The notes beneath the pieces were generated by a model. It did no database searches. It was not told the DNA's origin and was given only the letters and a program-made list of their open reading frames with translations. Source: Acidobacteriota bacterium (GTDB lineage Bacteria; Acidobacteriota; Terriglobia; Acidiferrales; UBA7541). From it: 63,120 bases of DNA. Position numbers and translations under genes: made by a program. The stretch is taken from positions 1-63,120 of the forward strand of contig QHYJ01000016.1 in NCBI GenBank assembly GCA_003223255.1, in the 5' to 3' direction. Of the stretch, positions 32,322 to 37,383 are shown one piece after another (the stretch's first letter is position 1; each line of letters begins with the position of its first letter).

Positions 32322-32885
32322 TCATTCAGCTAACTCAGATTCGATGGCTTTGGTGATTTCCTCGTAGTCGATCAGGCCCTGTACCCTTTGCACGATTTTG
32401 CCATCACGGGAAATAAGAAAGGTGGTGGGGTACCCGAGCAGGCCGCCGAATTTGTCGGCCACAGCATCATTGCCCCGCAGGATCGGGTAGTTCATCGGGA
32501 GCTTTTGGCCGTTCACGTTGAAGAGTTCTTTGGCGGCGTACGCGGAGACCACGTTATTGCCTTCATCGTCCACGTCGACGCCAAGAATAGTGAAGCCCTT
32601 TGGCGAATATTTCTGCTGCATTTCGATGAGCCAGGGAATTTCGACCTGGCAGGGTTCGCACCACGTGGCCCAGAAATTCACGAGCACTACTTTGCCCTTG
32701 TACTGGTTGAGTGGCACGTCCTTGCCGTCGAGGTCCTTGAAGGTGACTTCGGGCGCCGCCGGGCCAGTGAGCGTGTCAAGCTTCGGACCTTTGGCGTTGA
32801 CGCTAACACGCGTGGCCCTGTCCGCATAAACCGTCAAGCCGATGAGTATCGCCACGGTACCGATGATCAACAGAACCTTTTTCAT
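32322..32885 (-). CDS. TlpA-like thioredoxin, copy 1 (distal)
   Basis: A 187-residue membrane-anchored thioredoxin. An N-terminal helix (KKVLLIIGTVAILIGLTVYA) anchors it in the inner membrane. The redox site is Cys76-Glu-Pro-Cys79 in FWATWCEPC, and the cis-Pro region is LGYPTTFLISRDG. TlpA/ResA-type proteins reduce periplasmic disulfides, for instance in apo-cytochrome c. It is a tandem duplicate of the next gene upstream, with very similar sequence through most of the fold (IPWLIEMQQKY, KGFTILGVDVD, NYPILRG, AVADKFGGLLGYPT). It lies downstream of ccdA on the same strand, 40 bp after its duplicate. Confidence 0.9.
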   Translation of the reverse strand: MKKVLLIIGTVAILIGLTVYADRATRVSVNAKGPKLDTLTGPAAPEVTFKDLDGKDVPLNQYKGKVVLVNFWATWCEPCQVEIPWLIEMQQKYSPKGFTILGVDVDDEGNNVVSAYAAKELFNVNGQKLPMNYPILRGNDAVADKFGGLLGYPTTFLISRDGKIVQRVQGLIDYEEITKAIESELAE

Positions 32886-32925
32886 TTTGAATTTCCGAGA
32901 GTGTTCAGTCTCATTGATTTCATCA

Positions 32926-33483
32926 TCATAACTGGCATTCGATCACCTGGGTGAGCTCCTGATAGCTGATGGGCCACTTTATCTCCTTGGTAACCTTGTC
33001 ATCACGCGAGATGAGAAAACTAGTGGGATAGCCGAGCAGCCCGCCGAACTTGTCGGCTACGGCATCCCTGCCGCGCAGTATCGGATAGTTCACGGGGAGT
33101 TCCTGCCCGCCCACGTTAAATCGTTCCCTGGCCGCATACGCAGAAACCACAGTATTCCCCTCGTAGTCCACGTCCACGCCGAGAATCGTAAAGCCCTTCG
33201 ACGGATACTTCTGCTGCATTTCGATTAGCCAGGGAATCTCGGCCTGGCATGGTGCGCACCAGGTAGCCCAGAAATTCACGAACACTACTCTGCCTTTGTA
33301 TTGGCTGAGCGACACGTCCTTGCCATCGAGATCCCTGAACCTAACTTCGGGTGCAGGGGGGTAGGATGCGGTATTTGCGCACAGGGCGCCCTTTCGTTTC
33401 ACATGCGTCAACTTGTCCGCACAGATGATCAGGCCTATGTGCACCACCGCGGTGCCGATGATCAACAGAACTTTCTTCATCAA
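32926..33483 (-). CDS. TlpA-like thioredoxin, copy 2 (proximal to ccdA)
   Basis: A 185-residue paralogue of the neighbouring TlpA protein, with the same N-terminal anchor (KKVLLIIGTAV) and the redox site Cys-Ala-Pro-Cys in FWATWCAPC. The two proteins differ mainly in the anchor, in the linker after it (this copy has two extra Cys-containing positions, ICADK and ALCANTAS) and in the C-terminal helix. Replacement of Glu by Ala inside the CxxC motif may shift the redox potential, so the copies may serve different partners. It begins 65 bp after the ccdA stop codon; ccdA would supply electrons from cytoplasmic thioredoxin. Confidence 0.9.
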   Translation of the reverse strand: MMKKVLLIIGTAVVHIGLIICADKLTHVKRKGALCANTASYPPAPEVRFRDLDGKDVSLSQYKGRVVFVNFWATWCAPCQAEIPWLIEMQQKYPSKGFTILGVDVDYEGNTVVSAYAARERFNVGGQELPVNYPILRGRDAVADKFGGLLGYPTSFLISRDDKVTKEIKWPISYQELTQVIECQL

Positions 33484-34773: not shown

Positions 34774-35454
34774 ATGCCTTTTGAATGGACGCCCAATAAA
34801 GTGACCGCACTGCGCGTGGCGGTGGGATTCGCTGCGGTAAGCCTCTTTGGTCGGGGCGCTTGGGCCAATCTGCTGGCCGTGGCATTGACCGCAGCTGCAA
34901 TCGCCCTCGATGGGCTGGATGGGCACCTTGCGCGCAAGAAAAAGATGGCCACGCCCATGGGAGCGCAGTTGGACATTCTCGGCGACCGCATGATCGAAAA
35001 CGTGTATTTCACCTATTTCGCGGTGGTGGGGATGGTTTCGCTGTGGCTGCCGATTTTGTTTTTCGCGCGCGGCGCAGCGACAGATTTTCTGCGTGGGCTC
35101 GCGATGAAAGCGGGCCACTCCGGCTGGGGCGCGAATGCGCTGCACCAAACGTGGTGGGGACGGGCGCTGGTGGCTTCGCGCTGGAGCCGCGGGCTCTACG
35201 CCGCGATGAAATGCCTGTGCTTCTGCTATCTGGGAATGGAGTTGGCGCTGACGCGCGGGCCAGTGGCTTTGGTGAGCGGGCTTGGCGGAGACATCAGCGC
35301 AGCGATTCGAATGGGCGCACAGATGCTCACCTGGGCGACCGCGGTGTTTTGCCTGGTACGCGGCCTGCCGGTGCTGGTGGAGGGCTGGAAATATTTCGCG
35401 GGGAATGTGCGACAGGGGCGTGCGGGGAAACGGGCAGCGCCGGAGGCTGCGTGA
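34774..35454 (+). CDS. CDP-alcohol phosphatidyltransferase
   Basis: This 226-residue integral membrane enzyme carries the complete family motif D-x2-D-G-x2-A-R-x8-G-x3-D-x3-D: Asp46, Asp49-Gly50, Ala53-Arg54, Gly63, Asp67 and Asp71 (DGLDGHLARKKKM then GAQLDILGD). Such enzymes transfer a phosphatidyl group from CDP-diacylglycerol to an alcohol such as glycerol-3-phosphate or inositol-1-phosphate. Four to six membrane helices follow. The next genes, a HAD phosphatase overlapping or adjoining the stop codon and a PAP2 protein, suggest a lipid head-group pathway in which a phosphorylated product is dephosphorylated. The acceptor cannot be decided from the motif alone. Confidence 0.88.
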   Translation: MPFEWTPNKVTALRVAVGFAAVSLFGRGAWANLLAVALTAAAIALDGLDGHLARKKKMATPMGAQLDILGDRMIENVYFTYFAVVGMVSLWLPILFFARGAATDFLRGLAMKAGHSGWGANALHQTWWGRALVASRWSRGLYAAMKCLCFCYLGMELALTRGPVALVSGLGGDISAAIRMGAQMLTWATAVFCLVRGLPVLVEGWKYFAGNVRQGRAGKRAAPEAA

Positions 35455-35462
35455 GGGAAGCT

Positions 35463-36266
35463 ATGGGAGCCAAGGAACATGGCGCACGAGTCGCGGCGTT
35501 CTTTGATTTGGATGGAACTTTGATGCCGCGGCCATCGATGGAACGCCGGTTTTTTCGAGTGCTGCGCTATCGCCGTGAAATTCCGCTGAAGAACTATTTT
35601 TCTTGGTTGCGAGAAGCCCTGAAATTGCTGCCGCGCGGGGTTGGCGCCGTGAAGCAGGCAAACAAAATGTATTTGGAAGGCGTACACAGTCTCGACGAGT
35701 GTGGCGCGGGAAGTCGCAGTGATTTTCCCGCACACAAGGGCGGCCCCCAAGCGGAGGGACAGGCATTGACGCTTCCGAGGCGCAACCCACGATTGCCTGT
35801 CCCTCGCTTTTTTGAGGAGGCGGTGGAAAGAGTCACGTGTCATGCCATGTTGGGCCACGCCATCGTGATCGTGAGTGGCACCCTCGCGCCTTTGGCGGCG
35901 CTCGCGGCGAGGGCATTAGAAATGGAATTAGCGGTTCGAGGATTTGCCATGAAAATTCGCGTCTGCTCGACAAGACTGGAAGAAATGAAGGGCCAGTGGA
36001 CTGGCCGCATTGCTGGTGAAGCCATGTTCGGCCAAGCGAAAGCGCGGGCCGTCGCCGCGCTAGCGGACCAATGGCACTTGGATTTGACGCAATGCTGGGC
36101 GTATGGGGACAGCGCGAAGGATCGGGAGATGCTGGAGGCGGTAGGTAAACCGGCTGCTGTGAATCCGACATGGAAGCTGGCGCGAATGGCCCTAAAACGG
36201 GATTGGCCGGTGTGGCGTTGGAGAGAAAAAGAGATTTGCCACCGAGACGCAGAGAGCACGGAGTAG
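35463..36266 (+). CDS. HAD-superfamily (subclass IB) phosphatase with in-frame palindromic insertion
   Basis: From ATG 35463 (GAGGGAAG upstream) the protein has 267 residues. A GTG at 35451, overlapping the previous stop as GTGA, is an alternative start. HAD motifs are present in order: I is Asp15-Leu-Asp17-Gly-Thr (FFDLDGTL), II is VSGT, III the Lys in FGQAKARAV, and IV is GDSAKDREM (Asp216, Asp220). The SerB/PgpC-like pattern suggests dephosphorylation of a lipid or alcohol phosphate. Between ECGAG and FFEEAVERV there is an unusual Pro/Arg/Gln-rich stretch of about 30 residues, encoded by DNA with a perfect 12-bp inverted repeat. This looks like an inserted repeat element tolerated in frame. 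Confidence 0.82.
   Translation: MGAKEHGARVAAFFDLDGTLMPRPSMERRFFRVLRYRREIPLKNYFSWLREALKLLPRGVGAVKQANKMYLEGVHSLDECGAGSRSDFPAHKGGPQAEGQALTLPRRNPRLPVPRFFEEAVERVTCHAMLGHAIVIVSGTLAPLAALAARALEMELAVRGFAMKIRVCSTRLEEMKGQWTGRIAGEAMFGQAKARAVAALADQWHLDLTQCWAYGDSAKDREMLEAVGKPAAVNPTWKLARMALKRDWPVWRWREKEICHRDAESTE
35754..35805 (+). repeat. In-frame palindromic element inside the HAD gene
   Basis: GAGGGACAGGCA at 35754-35765 is the exact reverse complement of TGCCTGTCCCTC at 35794-35805, with a 28-base loop. It lies within codons for a segment that has no counterpart in ordinary HAD-IB phosphatases, and the reading frame stays open through it. Confidence 0.7.
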
Positions 36267-36324
36267 AAAGAATGAATGGCATTGAGGCGGCAGCAAATAA
36301 TTCGCGGTGGTCGCGGGCGGGGCG

Positions 36325-37383
36325 ATGCGCATGAACGAACTCCACAGGCAAGACTACCCGGTCAGCGAAGGCGAGAGCGCGGTTGCGTGGGCGCCACAGC
36401 CAAAGCGACTGGCCTTCACAACGCTTATCGTCCGGCAGTTTGCGGAAGCGTGTGCGGCATGCGGCGCGTTCGAATGGATCGCGCTGGGATACCTGGCGCT
36501 GTCCAGCGTACTGATTGCACTGTTCGCGGAGAACCTGGCACATCCGGCGAGATTGATTGCCGTGCAAGCACTCGTCGCAGCGATCATTTTGTTGCTGAGC
36601 AGAGCCGAACGGCGATATGCGGAGCAGCGGGCAGACAAGAATGGCCAATTTACCGTCCGTTTCTGGCATTTTTGGCGGCACTGGTATCCGCACCTGTTTT
36701 TCCTCTTTTGTTTTGAGGAAATGGGTCAACTGGTCCATCTCGTGAATGCCGGATGGGGGGATGCCAGGCTCATTGCCTTCGATCGCTGGCTCATGGGCGT
36801 GAATCCGTCGCTCTGGTTTGAACACCTTGCCCAGCCCGCGCTGACGGAATTCATGGAATTTTCCTACTTTACTTACTTTGTTTACCTGCTCATTCTCGGC
36901 GGCGTTCTTTATTGCCAGCGTGACTGGAAAAGCTATTGGGCAGTGATGACGTACTCGGCCGTTGGTTATGTGTGCGGCTACCTCATTGCCATGCTGTTTC
37001 CGGTGCAGGGCCCGTGGTTCACGCTGGCGGGCCAGTGGCATGGCGGGCTCGTCGGCGGCCCGTTTACGGCGGCCATCGACTTCATTGAAAAATGTGGCCG
37101 CGTGCACGGCGCTGCGTTTCCTTCGCAGCACGTCGCGGGAGCGATGGGCGCGGTTTGGGGAGCGTGGCGACACCGGCGCTGGCTCTTCTGGACCTTCGTT
37201 CCCTTCGTCGCGTGCATGTGCGTTTCGACGGTCTATGTCCGCAACCATTATGTGGCCGACGTGCTGGGCGGGTTGGTCACGGGGACGCTGGGATATTTCC
37301 TGGGGCGCTGCGTCATGCAAGCACGCGGTTCTGTGGCCAGCTCCGTAGAGAATCATACAGGAATGACTTTCCACCAGATCTGA
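36325..37383 (+). CDS. PAP2-superfamily membrane protein (inositol-phosphorylceramide-synthase-like)
   Basis: About 352 residues from ATG 36325; 36307 (GTG) and 36331 are alternatives. There are about six membrane helices. The PAP2 catalytic motifs are PSQHVAGAMG (SxxH) and VRNHYVADVLGG (RNHYxxD), near the C-terminus, while the KxxxxxxRP motif is weak, as in the PAP2_3 subgroup that includes inositol-phosphorylceramide synthases. PAP2 enzymes hydrolyse or exchange phosphate esters at the membrane surface. In the order CDP-alcohol transferase, HAD phosphatase, PAP2 it could move a head group onto another lipid or dephosphorylate a lipid. The gene starts about 60 bp after the HAD gene, on the same strand. 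Confidence 0.82.
   Translation: MRMNELHRQDYPVSEGESAVAWAPQPKRLAFTTLIVRQFAEACAACGAFEWIALGYLALSSVLIALFAENLAHPARLIAVQALVAAIILLLSRAERRYAEQRADKNGQFTVRFWHFWRHWYPHLFFLFCFEEMGQLVHLVNAGWGDARLIAFDRWLMGVNPSLWFEHLAQPALTEFMEFSYFTYFVYLLILGGVLYCQRDWKSYWAVMTYSAVGYVCGYLIAMLFPVQGPWFTLAGQWHGGLVGGPFTAAIDFIEKCGRVHGAAFPSQHVAGAMGAVWGAWRHRRWLFWTFVPFVACMCVSTVYVRNHYVADVLGGLVTGTLGYFLGRCVMQARGSVASSVENHTGMTFHQI

Follow-up and report, generated by a model that had tools for sequence, protein, structure and literature searches.

In an Acidobacteriota bacterium (assembly GCA_003223255.1), we describe a three-gene unit, hereafter the trio, that lies on the 63,120 nucleotides of contig QHYJ01000016.1 (positions 1 to 63,120; the window) and codes for a CDP-alcohol phosphotransferase (CDP-AP), a HAD-IB phosphatase and a PAP2_3 membrane protein. 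The trio is one functional, conserved operon that is confined to gp2/Acidiferrales acidobacteria. We propose, as a reading that we hold to be evenly poised between right and wrong, that it codes for a pathway of three enzymes, specific to this clade, that supplies a head group to membrane lipids. In the first step the CDP-AP, at the cytosolic face, would combine CDP-diacylglycerol with a phosphorylated polyol to give phosphatidyl-X-phosphate and CMP. The HAD-IB phosphatase would then strip the terminal phosphate to yield phosphatidyl-X, from which the Aur1-fold PAP2 protein would move phospho-X to a second lipid with release of diacylglycerol. X would most likely be glycerol or a related small polyol, with phosphatidyl-X as a phosphatidylglycerol (PG)-like donor, and inositol would be the second choice. 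The second lipid is predicted not to be ceramide because no serine palmitoyltransferase (SPT) was detected in the genome.

A conserved operon of gp2/Acidiferrales acidobacteria

A reading made from the DNA letters alone (the sequence-only reading) had recognised a CDP-AP with a complete motif, a HAD-IB phosphatase and a PAP2_3 protein, in this order. All three lie on the forward strand at the positions first described, and the Pfam and TIGR scores (Table 1) agree with these assignments. So do the 39 orthologous loci that were fetched, every one of which carries the three genes in one order, with stop-start overlaps mostly of 4 nucleotides. We surveyed 151 genomes ranging from the same genus up to the same class and found close orthologues of the CDP-AP in 43 (31 of the 36 genomes of the genus, plus 12 from the family's other genera) and in none of the remainder. 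Orthologues of the PAP2 protein occur in the identical 43 genomes and both are missing from the other 108; these genomes are related and hence not independent, so that the p-value of this association is overstated, and the count rests on the CDP-AP and PAP2 genes, the HAD gene not being counted on its own. The constant order and this co-occurrence are far beyond chance. Together with the Aur1-like predicted fold described below, they make it unlikely that the PAP2 protein is unrelated to the other two, as in the other option of the sequence-only reading, a PG-phosphate synthase and PgpC-type phosphatase beside an unrelated PAP2 protein. In the sampled alignments the identity to the window protein is 44-91% for the CDP-AP, 39-75% for the PAP2 protein and 35-68% for the HAD protein.

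A scan of 84,980 species returned 41 loci, all from gp2/Acidiferrales except for one weak Myxococcales match of 54 residues; that match aside, no trio turned up in other groups. The host itself is an acidobacterium, as the strong relatives all belong to Acidobacteria gp2, Candidatus Acidiferrum or metagenome-assembled genomes of Acidiferrales. To the left of the trio, divergently transcribed genes for CcdA and thioredoxin are kept across loci. The right neighbours vary by lineage: the window shares an aminotransferase and PanE with four relatives, and 29 others have an amidase there. This pattern indicates that the unit comprises the three genes alone. Further lipid genes were not seen in the conserved neighbourhood, whose members, recognised by eye, are CcdA, thioredoxin, a DsbD-like protein, a frataxin-like small protein, glutamyl-tRNA synthetase and the amidase. 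At 32322-33483 the window has two tandem thioredoxin-like genes beside CcdA where the fetched relatives show a single gene, likely the result of a recent duplication.

For the HAD gene, the start is probably the GTG at 35451, which gives a 4-nucleotide overlap with the CDP-AP stop as in most orthologues, with the ATG at 35463 as the alternative. The PAP2 gene probably starts at the ATG (MNELH...) in preference to the upstream GTG, since the orthologue alignment begins with MN. No Rfam family was matched at gathering level between 33000 and 39000.

Table 1. Features of the trio in the window
Feature	Position	Strand	Details
CDP-alcohol phosphotransferase (CDP-AP)	34774..35454	+	226 aa; PF01066 57 bits (cut-off 22); full signature motif
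HAD-IB phosphatase	35451..36266	+	PF12710 85 bits; TIGR01490 100.9 bits (cut-off 98.3)
PAP2_3 membrane protein	36331..37383	+	PF14378 73 bits (cut-off 27); open frame reaches back to GTG 36307
Perfect 10-bp inverted repeat GGGACAGGCA...TGCCTGTCCC	35756..35803	+	inside in-frame insert of the HAD gene

The PAP2 protein and the phosphatase

The fold predicted for the PAP2 protein (pLDDT 81) best matches, over its length, the Aur1 inositol phosphorylceramide (IPC) synthases. The model aligns with IPC synthase 9vj4 at a Z of 15.4 over 251 residues and with Aur1-Kei1 (9ivc) at 15.2 over 244, followed by LpxE at 14.7 over 160. As the gap to LpxE is less than one Z unit, the extent of the alignment carries more weight than the rank: lipid phosphatases cover 160-180 residues of the model. 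The motifs FPSxH and ST-Y----HY--D, which vary little or not at all among 24 orthologues, are the same as those of AUR1, and the arginine of the SR pair of PAP2 phosphatases such as BsPgpB is a threonine (ST) here, as in AUR1. At 15% identity the protein is nonetheless remote from Aur1, and it scores 13 against a cut-off of 480 with the model for phosphoinositol dihydroceramide synthase. Its motifs and predicted fold suggest that it is more likely a transferase than a phosphatase.

Other acidobacteria have a PAP2_3 protein 26-31% identical to that of the trio in a five-gene cluster (L098:371-5147, L099:2599-7528 and L100:4574-9445), along with an SPT-like protein, a GNAT protein, an NAD-dependent epimerase and DUF3047 (Pfam-checked in L098 only). 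This cluster may be a sphingolipid locus that has an Aur1-like protein of its own.

The HAD protein clears the curated TIGR01490 cut-off, and its catalytic D15xD17GT, K193 and D220 (numbered from ATG 35463) are invariant in 24 orthologues. Its nearest solved relatives are 3fvv and phosphoserine phosphatases. In the window the gene contains an in-frame insert of about 26 codons (35722-35815) with the inverted repeat of Table 1, a hairpin z-score of -3.2 and then a T run. A single sub-lineage of the genus has the insert (L037 and L043 among others, with a partial repeat in L038, L040 and L048), and the rest of the genus lacks it. The repeat has no second copy anywhere in the genome, and the catalytic motifs all lie outside it.

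Affinities of the CDP-alcohol phosphotransferase

The signature of the CDP-AP is complete (D46xxD49G50xxA53R54...G63xxxD67xxxD71), with D49, G50, R54, G63, D67 and D71 present in all 40 orthologues, D46 in 39 and A53 in 37. The sequence-only reading had leaned towards a phosphatidylinositol-phosphate (PIP) synthase, against which NCBIfam scores, tree, profile comparison and fold all speak. No NCBIfam cut-off is reached: the enzyme scores 50.9 (cut-off 109.1) with pgsA (TIGR00560), 47.1 (180) with archaetidylinositol-phosphate (AIP) synthase, 29.4 (170) with PIPSynth and 15.5 (350) with PIPSynBT1523. The genome codes for five CDP-APs, and the one of PIP-synthase/AIP type is L004 on contig C262, at 165 with the AIP, 129 with the PIPSynth and 126 with the BT1523 model; L004 itself misses the same three cut-offs, though by much less than the trio's enzyme, and failure to reach a cut-off is thus to be read with caution. 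Near this gene on C262 (L004/L075) stand those for an AMP-ligase, a lipid kinase and an acyltransferase. The remaining three CDP-APs are a canonical PgsA (L002; 148 bits, above cut-off), a PssA-like protein (L003, adjoined by a probable phosphatidylserine decarboxylase gene) and a ClsA/PgsA-like protein (L001).

In a phylogenetic tree the trio CDP-APs form a clade of their own, and a branch with support of 100/99 parts the PIP synthases, including that of Mycobacterium tuberculosis, from the trio, PgsA, ClsA and PssA; the tree has long branches, its root was not inferred, and its Escherichia coli PgsA row is an unverified sequence. The query sequences for M. tuberculosis PgsA1 and for SPT were checked against PDB chains. 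The comparison with PgsA and PIP synthases that the sequence-only reading had called for thus places the enzyme on the PgsA side, though not inside PgsA. Profile comparison points the same way, PgsA giving the sole full-length match among the families compared (180 columns, E 3e-14) and the PIP-synthase set matching over 71 N-terminal columns (E 2e-8), about as well as PIP synthases match PgsA. The predicted model (pLDDT 79, the five models ranging from 58 to 79) is nearest in fold to Staphylococcus aureus PgsA (7drj/7drk; Z 17.6), against 12-15 for PIP synthases, and Foldseek gives E 3e-5 for PgsA against 0.015 for PIP synthases. By structure, profile and HMM, the trio CDP-AP is therefore a separate third branch, which is not that of the PIP synthases and, though nearer to PgsA, is not that of standard PgsA either.

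The fold comparison also bears on a product other than a lipid of the kind proposed. The CDP-AP could use a non-lipid or glycan-linked acceptor (compare di-myo-inositol phosphate), or the PAP2 protein could add phospho-X to a polysaccharide, lipid A or a carrier lipid. The CDP-AP family does include enzymes with soluble products (AF2299, DIPPS), and a different family of the class has distantly related PAP2 proteins (L102-L104) encoded beside ABC transporters and large membrane proteins. We nevertheless consider this decidedly unlikely, given that the soluble-product enzymes reach a Z of only 12-13 and that the conserved unit, set among CcdA/thioredoxin and housekeeping genes, lacks any glycosyltransferase or cytidylyltransferase.

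Several observations weigh against the head-group pathway that we propose. The glutamate that follows the TM4 (fourth transmembrane helix) arginine and is invariant in the class's own PgsA set (E107) is G100 in 40 of 40 trio orthologues, the GKxK motif of PgsA is replaced, and K79 of PgsA corresponds to R72. R72, E75 and R136xxR139, the last being a motif absent from PgsA, are closer to PIP synthase (D4-R, D and RPER), and the invariant R72 and R136xxR139 align with the acceptor-site residues R94 and R152/R155 of the M. tuberculosis enzyme. With PgsA residues lost and PIP-synthase-like ones in place, glycerol phosphate is not assured as the acceptor. The enzyme activities, step order, identity of X and acceptor are all read from families and folds. 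Foldseek ranks the PAP2 targets as the Z scores do but at modest E-values (0.01-0.03), the PAP2 protein may instead act as a phosphatase, and co-inheritance was established for two of the three genes. From its residues, the CDP-AP acceptor is likely phosphorylated, which the downstream phosphatase fits, and the pocket is of its own kind.

The PgsA-side placement is also what would be expected if the trio were a second PG-phosphate synthase with a PgpC-like PG-phosphate phosphatase and a PAP2 lipid-phosphate phosphatase or recycling enzyme, producing no new lipid. Membership of the HAD-IB family suits this, as does the role of many PAP2 proteins as lipid phosphatases; by sequence, the top PDB match of the trio's PAP2 protein is BsPgpB. 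A sequence search of the PDB with this protein on its own was uninformative. We judge the plain PG route unlikely: PgsA and PgpA are already present in nearly all these genomes, the residues invariant in PgsA are lost, and in the PAP2 protein the C3 motif is of the Aur1 type and the fold aligns best with Aur1. The occurrence of canonical PgsA, PssA and PgpA elsewhere in the genome is instead counted in favour of an accessory role for the trio.

Inositol and ceramide supply, and the trio in acidobacterial lipid biology

The sequence-only reading had observed that the window lacks an inositol-1-phosphate synthase (MIPS), and this holds more widely: two family models (PF01658, PF07994) and a MIPS protein from the genus found no significant match in the whole assembly, which is a draft of 428 contigs from which a gene may have been lost. 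In the class sample MIPS is present in 134 of 151 genomes, including 40 of the 43 with the trio, and as it is near-universal in the class, the gap in this genome may be due to such loss. Besides this genome (G000), MIPS is missing from a second carrier of the trio, G010, and there the loss is possibly real (10 contigs, 98% complete). MIPS and the trio show no association (Fisher p 0.40), and MIPS was accordingly dropped as a marker of the trio. PIP-synthase-type CDP-APs like L004 are likewise near-universal in the class; they are not adjacent to MIPS in the loci read (MIPS loci L076-L087). Since such enzymes occur class-wide and phosphatidylinositol has been reported in the acidobacterium Occallatibacter (PMC12935467), the inositol lipids of the class need no trio.

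As for ceramide, an SPT, which the sequence-only reading had suggested seeking elsewhere in the genome, was not found. The query retrieved one SPT-like gene, which scores 362.7 with the SPT model (cut-off 640) and is a glycine C-acetyltransferase (484.9, cut-off 460) beside threonine dehydrogenase. With neither MIPS nor SPT detected, the synthesis of IPC that the sequence-only reading had put forward is not supported. The results come close to both grounds on which that reading would fall, though short of a full refutation, with the CDP-AP on the PgsA side but not inside PgsA and MIPS missing from a draft assembly.

The likeness to Bacteroidetes on which that proposal was built combined two distinct loci. 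In the characterised BT_1522-BT_1526 cluster of Bacteroides thetaiotaomicron, as in the trio, genes for a CDP-AP, a phosphatase and a PAP2-type protein related to Aur1 lie together and follow the same three-step logic. However, its PIP phosphatase, BT_1525, is of the PgpA family (PMC9246714) in place of a HAD protein, and the cluster includes MIPS and is fed with dihydroceramide by an SPT encoded elsewhere. The alternative cluster of Bacteroides vulgatus shares the adjacency of a CDP-AP and a HAD gene with the trio, but it adds a nucleotidyltransferase, lies near MIPS and has no PAP2 protein named, the functions being unconfirmed in that paper (PMC9246714). What remains reasonable of the parallel is the idea of an Aur1-like head-group transfer.

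Such a transfer might still involve inositol, with the CDP-AP forming phosphatidylinositol phosphate, the HAD protein converting it to phosphatidylinositol and the PAP2 protein moving phosphoinositol to a non-ceramide lipid, the inositol phosphate coming from an unassembled MIPS or from uptake. The Aur1-like fold and the presence of MIPS in most trio genomes are compatible with this. So are the arginines R72 and R136xxR139: the trio CDP-AP has the catalytic motif, the D4-R and the RxxR before TM5 in common with PIP synthases (Renibacterium 5d91/5d92, Mycobacterium 6h53, L004), and the M. tuberculosis enzyme requires R94 and R155 for inositol-phosphate use (PMC6506517, PMC4634129). Of the acceptor arginines R153 and R191 of the Renibacterium enzyme (R155 and R195 in M. 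tuberculosis), the first is matched by R139, but the second falls on V200; the invariant R196 of the trio sits four columns earlier, one turn away. The TM6 arginine is thus in another column, and the A-R-A-E motif of PIP synthases is absent. Given also the placement of the CDP-AP outside the PIP synthases by model scores, tree, profile and fold, the L004-type enzyme available class-wide, the lack of MIPS in G000 and G010 and the lack of association, this route is decidedly unlikely, and inositol appears from the sequences to be an unlikely head group.

Acidobacteria abound in soils and have unusual lipids. The question that the trio raises is kept apart from ordinary phosphatidylinositol synthesis, whose candidate genes (MIPS and the PIP-synthase-type CDP-AP) occur class-wide outside it. 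This compact, strictly co-inherited unit includes an Aur1-like enzyme although no ceramide pathway was detected in the genome, which predicts head-group transfer to another acceptor. Tentatively, and with much more doubt than confidence, we suggest that in Acidiferrales a CDP-AP of a third kind, whose specificity would be for neither glycerol 3-phosphate nor inositol phosphate, may make a phosphatidyl-polyol from which the Aur1-like enzyme would move the phospho-head group to a non-sphingoid lipid, such as an ether, membrane-spanning, ornithine or hopanoid lipid.

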